The notes under the pieces: generated by a model
Told to the model about the DNA's origin: nothing
Databases searched by the model: none
The model's input: only the letters and a program-made list of their open reading frames with translations
Program-made: the position numbers and the translations under genes
Assembly: GCA_008015235.1 (NCBI GenBank)
Contig: SSFF01000005.1
Coordinates: 1 to 64,000, forward strand
Origin: Rhodoferax sp.
GTDB lineage: Bacteria > Pseudomonadota > Gammaproteobacteria > Burkholderiales > Burkholderiaceae_C
Reading direction: 5' to 3'
Length of the DNA stretch: 64,000 nucleotides
Shown: positions 7,546 to 51,012 of the stretch, piece after piece
How the letters are laid out: each line of letters opens with the position of its first letter
How positions within the stretch are numbered: the stretch's first letter is position 1

Positions 7546-8676
7546 TCAGCCACGCTGGCGACGTGCCACCACAGCCTGCGAAAGCACCTCCAGCACCTCG
7601 GCCGAATCGTCCCAGCCCAGGCAGGCGTCGGTGATGCTCTTGCCGTACTCCAGCTTGGAAACATCGTCCTTGCCCGGTGTGAACTTCTGGGCCCCGGCAT
7701 GCAGGTGGCTTTCGACCATGACGCCGAACACCTTGTGCGAACCACCCTGGATTTGCGCGGCGATGTCGCGCGCCACGTCGAGCTGCTTTTCGTGCTGCTT
7801 GCTGCTGTTGGCATGGCTGCAGTCCACCATCAGCGTGGCGGGCAGCTTGGCCTTGACCAGCTCTGCACAGGCGGCGTCGACGCTGGCGGCGTCGTAGTTG
7901 GGCGCCTTGCCACCGCGCAGGATGACGTGGCAGTCTTTGTTGCCATTGGTCTGGACAATCGCCACCTGGCCATTCTTGTGCACCGACAGGAAATGGTGGC
8001 CACCGGCCGCGGCCTGGATGGCGTCGGTGGCGATCTTGATGTTGCCGTCGGTGCCGTTCTTGAAGCCAATGGGTGCCGACAGGCCAGATGCCAGCTCGCG
8101 GTGCACCTGGCTCTCGGTGGTGCGGGCCCCGATGGCGCCCCAGGAGATCAGGTCGGCAATGTACTGGGGCGAGATCACATCGAGGAATTCACTGGCGGCC
8201 GGCAGGCCGAGGCGGTTGATCTCGATCAGCAGCTGGCGCGCAATACGCAGGCCTTCGTCGATGCGGCAGCTCTCATCCAGGTAGGGGTCGTTGATCAGGC
8301 CCTTCCAGCCCACCGTGGTGCGCGGTTTCTCGAAATACACGCGCATCACGATTTCCAGCGTGTCGGCGTATTGCTCGCGCAAGTCCTTGAGGCGGCGTGC
8401 GTAATCGAGCGCAGCGGCCGGGTCGTGGATGGAGCACGGGCCGATGACCACCAGCAGGCGGTCGTCCTTCTTGGCCATGATGTTGTGGATGGTACGGCGC
8501 GTGGAGGTGATCAAGGCCTCGATGGCGGTGCCGCGGATCGGGAAAAAGCGGATCAGGTGCTCGGGAGGCGGCAACACGGTAATGTCCTTGATGCGTTCGT
8601 CATCGGTCTGGCTGGTACGGTCGGCGGGGTGGGCTTGGCCATACCAGGCAGGGGTGGCGTTCGTCTTGGCGTTCAT
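7546..8676 (-). CDS. aroG: 3-deoxy-7-phosphoheptulonate (DAHP) synthase, class I
   Basis: Catalyses condensation of phosphoenolpyruvate and erythrose 4-phosphate to DAHP, the first step towards Phe, Tyr and Trp. The protein of 376 residues is a class I (AroF/G/H type) enzyme: LLVVIGPCSIHDP, the FEKPRTTVGWKG substrate loop, GARTTESQVHRE and the metal-binding VDCSHANSSK are all present. The frame starts upstream at a TTG, but ATG 8676 has an AGGAG site seven bases before it. It is preceded by a leader peptide rich in Phe, Tyr and Trp and by an intrinsic terminator, so expression is very probably controlled by attenuation. Which amino acid inhibits the enzyme itself cannot be told from the sequence. 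Confidence 0.97.
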   Translation of the reverse strand: MNAKTNATPAWYGQAHPADRTSQTDDERIKDITVLPPPEHLIRFFPIRGTAIEALITSTRRTIHNIMAKKDDRLLVVIGPCSIHDPAAALDYARRLKDLREQYADTLEIVMRVYFEKPRTTVGWKGLINDPYLDESCRIDEGLRIARQLLIEINRLGLPAASEFLDVISPQYIADLISWGAIGARTTESQVHRELASGLSAPIGFKNGTDGNIKIATDAIQAAAGGHHFLSVHKNGQVAIVQTNGNKDCHVILRGGKAPNYDAASVDAACAELVKAKLPATLMVDCSHANSSKQHEKQLDVARDIAAQIQGGSHKVFGVMVESHLHAGAQKFTPGKDDVSKLEYGKSITDACLGWDDSAEVLEVLSQAVVARRQRG

Positions 8677-8716
8677 GTCTGCGCTCCTGTTCAAAATGGA
8701 AAACTGTCAAAAAACC

Positions 8717-8748
8717 AAAAAAAAAACCGCCGGGGTGTCCGGCGGTTT
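8717..8748 (-). terminator. Attenuator (intrinsic terminator) in the aroG leader
   Basis: On the minus strand, a perfect 10-bp stem AAACCGCCGG / CCGGCGGTTT with loop ACACC is followed by a run of ten T residues beginning within the stem. It lies between the leader peptide stop (8780) and the aroG ATG (8676), so it terminates before aroG. A true 3'-end terminator of tldD would sit beside the tldD stop at 8902, not 150 bases further on, after a second small reading frame. Confidence 0.9.
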
Positions 8749-8779
8749 GGGGGATTCGAATCGTCTTTTTTGGGTACGT

Positions 8780-8851
8780 TCAGATCTCTCGACCGCCGGT
8801 TGCGCGTGAGAACCAAAAGTAGGCAAAAAAGTACGATGTGCTGAAAAGCAT
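8780..8851 (-). CDS. aroG leader peptide, 23 residues
   Basis: A short frame on the minus strand from ATG 8851 to TGA 8780. Eight of its 23 residues are aromatic: Phe3, then YFFAYFWF at residues 7-14. That gives five Phe, two Tyr and one Trp, with seven of the eight in one block. This is what a sensing leader peptide for all three end products would look like. No Shine-Dalgarno is obvious. A weak -10-like TACAGT ends 7 bases before the ATG, so the message might even be leaderless. The peptide itself probably has no function beyond stalling. Confidence 0.9.
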   Translation of the reverse strand: MLFSTSYFFAYFWFSRATGGREI

Positions 8852-8901
8852 GGGGCCCACTGTAGCACAGCTTTTTTCGATGCAGCTGACGCGCACCGGA
8901 C

Positions 8902-50627: not shown

Positions 50628-50678
50628 GGTGCCCTCCGTGAAAAGTGAATTCAGGGTTCAACCATACCGCAAAAAAAG

Positions 50679-51012
50679 TGTGAAGCCCACCGATAAGCCG
50701 GATTCTGTGCATGCGGGTTTCCCCGCATGTGACCACCATTAATCTGGGCCGCCAGTCGCCTGATCGGCTCGATGCCACCTACCCGCACACTCCGGGGGCC
50801 CCGTCAACGTGTGCCTACTTGGTGTTGCTGCGCGTAGAGATTGCCCGTTTCACCCGCACTGAAGCGGCTCGTCTCTGTTGCTCTGATCCTCACCTTAGGG
50901 CCTTTCAGCTTGTCGGTGGGCAGCCGTTAGCTGCTACGCTGCCCGATGCAGTCCGGACTTTCCTCCAGTGCTCTGTTTCCAGAATTGCACCAGCGGTGGT
51001 CTGGCGGGCTTC
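50679..51012 (-). ncRNA. rnpB: RNase P RNA (class A)
   Basis: The catalytic RNA that trims tRNA 5' ends. On the minus strand it starts GAAGCCCGCC, pairing with GGTGGGCTTC at the 3' end (helix P1). It contains the universal GAGGAAAGTCCGGAC near the 5' end, CAGAGCAACAGAGA, GAAACGGGCAA, and the 3' signature ACAGAATCCGGCTTATCGGT. Length of about 334 nt fits a bacterial type A molecule. Seven T residues (50671-50677) follow the 3' end. Frames crossing this stretch are not genes. Confidence 0.97.

Follow-up and report, generated by a model that had tools for sequence, protein, structure and literature searches.

How do Betaproteobacteria set the expression of DAHP synthase at the entry to the shikimate pathway? 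In the part of a comparative study considered here, TrpR and TyrR are described as conserved in many gammaproteobacterial groups and absent in other classes (Leyn et al., 2016; PMC5343134), which leaves the control of DAHP synthase expression in Betaproteobacteria open. The question arises at aroG of a Rhodoferax sp., which lies at 7546..8676 on the minus strand of a 64,000-nt stretch of contig SSFF01000005.1 (the window, to which all positions refer) and encodes a type I DAHP synthase of 376 aa from the ATG at 8676 (Pfam PF00793, E 5.1e-94). A first-pass annotation of the window proposed that an attenuator sensing Phe, Tyr and Trp stands in front of this gene. Searches of the genome with models for TrpR (PF01371) and TyrR-HTH (TIGR04381) gave no match, with both models matching the E. 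coli control, and regulation of aroG by either repressor was rejected for this genome on that basis. A T-box or other riboswitch was likewise rejected, as the leader region matched no Rfam family of that kind at gathering score; the only Rfam match at that score in the window was bacterial RNase P RNA class A (50678-51012, minus strand, 202 bits). The Rfam Phe_leader model (RF01859) gave a full-length match of 26.5 bits (E 0.019), below its gathering cut-off of 55, and at 12 further loci no Rfam leader family reached the gathering cut-off. Two more genes of the AroG family (57% and 53% identical) are present in the same genome with neither an aromatic ORF nor a terminator in the 450 bases upstream of each, such that aroG need not be the sole entry to the pathway.

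On the minus strand the order of elements is the upstream gene (labelled tldD in the first-pass annotation), a TACAGT hexamer, a leader ORF, a terminator, an AGGAG sequence and the aroG ATG at 8676. The hexamer (8859..8864), by its sequence a candidate -10 promoter element, ends 7 nt before the leader ATG at 8851. The leader ORF (8780..8851, minus strand, its TGA ending at 8780) is probably leaderless and encodes the 23-residue peptide MLFSTSYFFAYFWFSRATGGREI with five Phe, two Tyr and one Trp. Codon content and conservation mark codons 7-14 (YFFAYFWF; 8810..8833, minus strand) as the sensor, within which the geometry of the ribosome footprint points to codons 11-14 (YFWF; 8821-8810) as the likely control codons. 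The terminator, AAACCGCCGG-ACACC-CCGGCGGTTT at 8748-8724, is a perfect 10-bp helix with G-C in seven of the ten pairs, the 5′ arm lying at 8739..8748 and the 3′ arm, as read from sequence and alignment, at 8724..8733, both on the minus strand, with ten consecutive T at 8717..8726 of which the first three are the paired T of the 3′ arm. Codons 18-20 of the leader hold the segment CCGGCGGT (8792..8799, minus strand), which is exactly complementary to ACCGCCGG, eight of the ten bases of the terminator 5′ arm, and covariation and folding both indicate that this arm is common to the terminator and an antiterminator. The frame (base for base), the perfect terminator with its T run and the exact complementarity over 8 bases are all as the first-pass annotation had described them.

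A third helix, P1, goes beyond that earlier account. On the minus strand, its 5′ side TTCTC (8808..8812) overlaps the last Phe codon in a 64-sequence alignment and its 3′ side GAGAG lies at 8786..8790 in the alignment register, such that P1 opens within the final codon of the sensor, with the antiterminator segment inside it. In the window's own sequence GAGAGA permits a second register two bases on, and it is this register that the computed folds use. P1 resembles the 1:2 hairpin of the trp leader, and leaders of the trpL and pheA type combine an alternative antiterminator and terminator with a protective hairpin of this kind. The aromatic leader ORF, intrinsic terminator, exclusive antiterminator and 1:2 hairpin that characterize trp/phe-type attenuators are all found at this locus.

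The aromatic frame is kept in relatives. An AroG match was found in 148 of 150 genomes of the family, the Rhodoferax genome included, the family being Comamonadaceae-like as judged from named loci, and upstream regions were taken for 145 of the 148, with G061, G067 and G102, which had weaker AroG matches only, left out. A short ORF with at least five F, Y or W in 10 codons precedes aroG in 144 of these 145 orthologues, the single exception (L219) having four aromatic residues only (MLRAVFFAYFRISPHPAAGEP). Under a stricter rule (an ATG ORF of 12-45 codons with at least five F/Y/W within 10 codons) 143 of the 145 aroG upstream regions passed, against none of 145 reverse complements and one of 725 dinucleotide shuffles, which rules out a chance ORF; the check for a conserved frame before aroG that the first-pass annotation had put forward finds it nearly universal in the family. 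The terminator was found by script in 143 of 144 family leaders, with a longer-loop terminator visible by eye in the one that the script missed (L194).

Among 80 named loci 66 passed the ORF rule, or 65 once L087, which passed by chance and has no terminator, had been dropped. The misses were L049 (no upstream DNA), the near-misses L052 and L094, three Polynucleobacter loci (L065, L066 and L068), two extra copies in Cupriavidus (L070 and L074), and L082, L083, L088, L091, L098 and L105. The gap in Cupriavidus was rejected as a true absence, as both loci are extra aroG copies in genomes that have the leader before another aroG; the copy without the leader ORF is 76% identical and stands beside the leader-bearing copy. 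In L094 (Candidatus Burkholderia humilis) the leader frame looks decayed and overlaps the start of aroG. The leaders of L052 and L189 have His among the aromatic codons (RYHFWHFHIQH and RFYFWHFHL, respectively), which might add histidine sensing. The family and named sets, which overlap in species, were pooled to give 208 rows with leader and terminator, representing 193 distinct peptides.

Beyond the family, matches were sought in the order and the class, which we take to be the Betaproteobacteria and the Gammaproteobacteria of GTDB, an assignment fitted to the named loci. A covariance model (R1) built from 64 sequences, the window's own included, gave one strong hit in the Rhodoferax genome (E 2.6e-19) with the next at E 0.037, and the pattern TAYTTYTGGTTY occurs at four places in that genome, the window's among them. 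Scanning 300 genomes of the order with R1 under strict filters, by which weak matches are lost, gave matches in 85, from 50 of 140 genera. The downstream gene was checked for 70 of 86 matches, and AroG lay directly downstream on the same strand in 66, from 14 families; in 65 of these the start of the model falls on the start codon of an aromatic-rich frame, L291 being the exception. The matches at L279 and L300 look like chance. Of the four model matches in family f27, the two examined downstream (L299 and L301) have an aromatic leader that precedes an unknown ORF and not aroG. In L299 the leader MVTFSVVYNVYFYWYRSSGGAKGC is accompanied by a terminator-like hairpin, with a 204-aa ORF lacking a Pfam match above cut-off, and the ORF behind the two leaders is possibly a further attenuated gene.

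A sample of 22 non-matching genomes (the first 20 listed of 215, with G261 and G379) held an AroG match in 17 and a leader with the switch in none of 21 loci, so that the distribution beyond the family is patchy. L309, which passes the ORF rule, was rejected, its aromatic run lying within the apparent terminator of the upstream gene. Five of eight named genomes matched the model, each before AroG (Burkholderia sp. D-99, Rugamonas rubra, Cupriavidus pampae, C. necator and a MAG labelled Bordetella), with no match in one Polynucleobacter, one Rhodocyclus and one Thauera genome. In the class, ten of 276 genomes matched, three of them from the family. Among the other seven matches, an aromatic leader stands before a DAHP synthase of 61-64% identity to AroG in four (three in f60, one in f65) and is lacking in three. 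The leaders of those four loci (L323-L326), which lie outside the order, include MNAARASFYFWYYFPKPLAEEGLRSP.

The start of the leader is itself unusual in its spacing. When -10-like hexamers were sought within about 30 nt of the leader ATG, the best ended 6-9 nt before it in 154 of the 193 leaders, compared with 358 of 3860 shuffled upstream regions, the hexamer being TACATT in 112 and TACAGT in 13. None of the 193 has AGGA, GGAG, GAGG or AAGG at -15 to -4 of the leader ATG; the same tetramers precede 152 of 182 aroG starts if any nearby in-frame ATG is accepted, and 148 of 182 with a single ATG. This combination of a -10-like spacing with no Shine-Dalgarno-like tetramer suggests that the leader is probably leaderless, with transcription likely to start at or beside the leader ATG in most of the family. 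The -10-like spacing was absent from the Burkholderia-type and Oxalobacter-type leaders examined.

In 190 of the 193 leaders the segment pairs better with the terminator arm than its shuffled versions do on average. Anchoring the segment blind to the arm retained 179 of 193; the anchor pattern failed in the 14 that were dropped, and of those retained L112, at least, is misanchored. Watson-Crick pairs with the 5′ arm were counted at core positions 1-5 in 179, 179, 174, 176 and 175 of the 179, respectively. Positions 4, 5 and 6 beat all of 2000 permutations of arms among leaders and position 7 all but three, in permutations that ignore kinship, with the arm side at positions 1-3 varying too little for the comparison. 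At position 0, just outside the core, only 48 of 179 rows pair, a share not above that of permuted arms. The strongest case is that of nine rows with the arm CCGTCGG, all of them having a G.U pair in the terminator; in seven of these the leader has A for G, giving an A-U pair and an Asp codon where the others have Gly, with L146 and L202 keeping the G. As the terminator right arm is unchanged in these rows, it is the leader-arm pairing itself that seems to be kept, and the seven leaders may represent one or a few events. The same situation recurs at the next position in L226, both sides have changed in L186 and L205, and Burkholderia-type leaders pair CTGGCGG with CCGCCAG. No gain from the own arm over consensus arms was found with arm CCGCCGA (23 leaders, 16.3 vs 18.1) or CCGCCGC (12 leaders, 17.4 vs 18.9), such that for most of these 35 of the 193 the support extends to a core of 5-6 bp and no further; L203 lacks any complement as long as five.

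In the alignment A1 of 64 sequences, which includes the window's own, 86.7% of cells in the antiterminator are paired, against 17-60% when the register is slid and only slightly above the value for shuffles (85.1%, sd 0.4), a weak contrast that arises because much of the core hardly varies. Both sides have changed in four of its seven pairs (4 of 500 shuffles as high), with further pair types not raised (8 vs 7.4; 229 of 500 shuffles reach 8). Of the cells in the terminator 95.4% are paired, and of those in P1 (TTCTC with GAGAG) 86.8%, with both sides changed in four of the five P1 pairs. As judged from these comparisons, leader segment and terminator arm covary in a way that the terminator itself does not explain, and the check for compensating changes in relatives that the first-pass annotation had put forward found the pairing to be kept by them.

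The ribosome footprint reaches about 15 nt past the first base of the P site; for a ribosome stalled with codon 14 in the A site it would end at nt 52, and CCGGCGGT is nt 53-60. Folding nt 53-118, that is with a stalled ribosome covering up to nt 52 and the right arm not yet out, gave antiterminator pair probabilities of 0.94-1.0, and placing codon 11 in the A site instead gives the same helix. When the ribosome has reached the stop codon only the terminator folds, and with no ribosome a long leader hairpin (TCTC with GAGA, two bases off the alignment register of P1) folds together with the terminator. Leaving out the bases covered by a stalled or a released ribosome gives the antiterminator or the terminator, respectively, in agreement with the earlier proposal that the two are mutually exclusive. 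The terminator fold (-26.4 kcal/mol, nt 53-130) is about 5 kcal/mol lower than the antiterminator fold (-21.2, nt 53-118), and as the terminator is favoured once the right arm is out antitermination must be kinetic, with the antiterminator forming first. Stalls at codons 7-9 would leave P1 intact, which argues for YFWF (codons 11-14) as the likely control set. Counted from the first base of the final aromatic codon, the segment starts at a distance of at least 9 nt in 186 of 192 leaders. Its end is no more than 18 nt from the stop codon in 159; in the remaining 33, where that distance is greater, the terminating ribosome may not fully cover the segment.

In all likelihood these elements form a ribosome-mediated transcription attenuator of aroG, a reading that draws on sequence and its comparison across relatives. 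Transcription would begin at the leader ATG, or within a base or two of it, with the ribosome loading directly on the nascent 5′ end. When charged Phe, Tyr or Trp tRNA is scarce, the ribosome would stall in the YFWF codons just ahead of the switch, where by sitting over TTCTC it would break P1 and free CCGGCGGT for the emerging left arm of the terminator, a pairing that would allow RNA polymerase to read on into aroG. With all three plentiful, the ribosome would reach the stop codon and cover CCGGCGGT, such that the terminator would form, and with no ribosome both the P1 hairpin and the terminator would be expected. On this mechanism aroG is very probably turned up when Phe, Tyr or Trp run short.

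The codon content of the leaders bears on which amino acids are sensed. Phe occurs in all 193 leaders, Tyr in 187, Trp in 171 and all three in 167; in the other 26 at least one is absent (Trp in 20, Tyr in four, and two leaders having Phe only). Phe accounts for 874 of 1368 aromatic codons, and with Trp absent from 22 of the 193 leaders a real switch that responds mainly to Phe is an alternative we regard as unlikely though deserving of weight, the more so as the available part of a review describes aroF of C. glutamicum, with its aroR leader, as responding to the availability of Phe and not of Tyr (PMC11802643). Against it, most leaders have Tyr and Trp codons within the final four positions of the sensor (Tyr at offset -3 in 120 of 193, Trp at offset -1 in 124 of 193), which is where a stall should free the antiterminator, and we infer that the switch works and senses all three aromatic amino acids.

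Codon choice and the interchange of residues speak to how the stall would come about. Except at the last aromatic codon, sensor Phe codons are TTT in 519 cases and TTC in 154, against TTT 122 and TTC 599 in aroG itself, counted at those leader loci where the gene is included; 134 of 193 leaders have TTC as their final aromatic codon, which suits the pairing in P1. This TTT bias points to decoding speed, and F and Y, and often W, swap for one another at the sensor positions, with quite different aromatic runs in other lineages, so that a nascent-chain arrest peptide of the TnaC kind, sensing a free aromatic amino acid and not tRNA charging, is highly improbable here in spite of the conservation of the peptide around YFWFS within the family. 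The antiterminator logic moreover needs a stall under scarcity, whereas it is free Trp that stalls TnaC, according to the section of the source consulted (PMC8429421). That the hairpin is merely the terminator of tldD and the small ORF an accident is hardly credible, for while the hairpin does sit between the upstream gene and aroG with all three in the same direction, the frame persists in 143 of 145 relatives, with one hit among 725 shuffles, a -10-like element is placed just ahead of the leader ATG, the leader segment appears to covary with the arm independently of the terminator, and leader and switch precede aroG in 14 families.

The proposed attenuator is not without parallels. The ilv and thr leaders of E. 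coli show that one leader can sense several amino acids, in their case branched-chain amino acids and threonine/isoleucine, which are not aromatic. In Vibrio, aroAI-alpha-Y > tyrA is, by its nomenclature, presumably a DAHP synthase operon. Attenuators ahead of it were predicted from databases (PMC1173090, 2005, Table 7); in the portion of that paper considered this is a prediction only, for another gene group, with leader content and mechanism not given. Closer in design are the trpL and pheA/pheST leaders of Enterobacteria, which as described in part of a review have a short leader ORF with codons for the end product (trpL and pheL; PMC11802643), and from which the present case differs in having a DAHP synthase as target, all three aromatics in one run and a probable leaderless start. 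The aroR leader of aroF in C. glutamicum encodes a Phe-Tyr-Phe peptide before a DAHP synthase gene, with stalling enhancing expression; it comes from another phylum with no Trp mentioned in the parts of the sources consulted, and the likeness is one of design only (PMC11802643; PMC4046766). In the available text of one paper aroR is called a translational leader (PMC7356990). A known leaderless case is trpL of S. meliloti (rnTrpL, peTrpL), the transcript of which starts at the ATG of the ORF, and which differs in sensing Trp only, on trpE(G), with its leader RNA and peptide also acting in trans, as set out in the portion of the source considered (PMC7298713). The main texts of Naville and Gautheret (2010; PMC2965389) and Sun et al. 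(2013; PMC3766115), as far as they were consulted, do not name aroG. The first-pass annotation knew of no named case on aroG in Betaproteobacteria, and this stands in that none was found in the open-access literature consulted, an earlier prediction in subscription papers being possible; attenuation of a DAHP synthase gene as such is known from aroR of C. glutamicum. The novelty lies not in the mechanism, which is classical, but in the gene and clade concerned, in a sensor for three amino acids, in a probably leaderless start and in an occurrence that is nearly universal within the family.

Tentatively, the attenuator may be taken further, as a leaderless OR-gate sensor of three aromatics that could be the main transcriptional control of shikimate entry across a large part of the Betaproteobacteria and in certain other families of the class, a cis counterpart of TyrR and TrpR of E. 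coli, with the released leader of about 130 nt perhaps acting in trans as in S. meliloti. The attenuator would also be a ready reporter of aromatic tRNA charging, and its natural variants, numerous and probably leaderless, lend themselves to a comparison of pairing, codon choice and ribosome position. A nearly universal attenuator of aroG would go far to answer how Betaproteobacteria set the expression of DAHP synthase.
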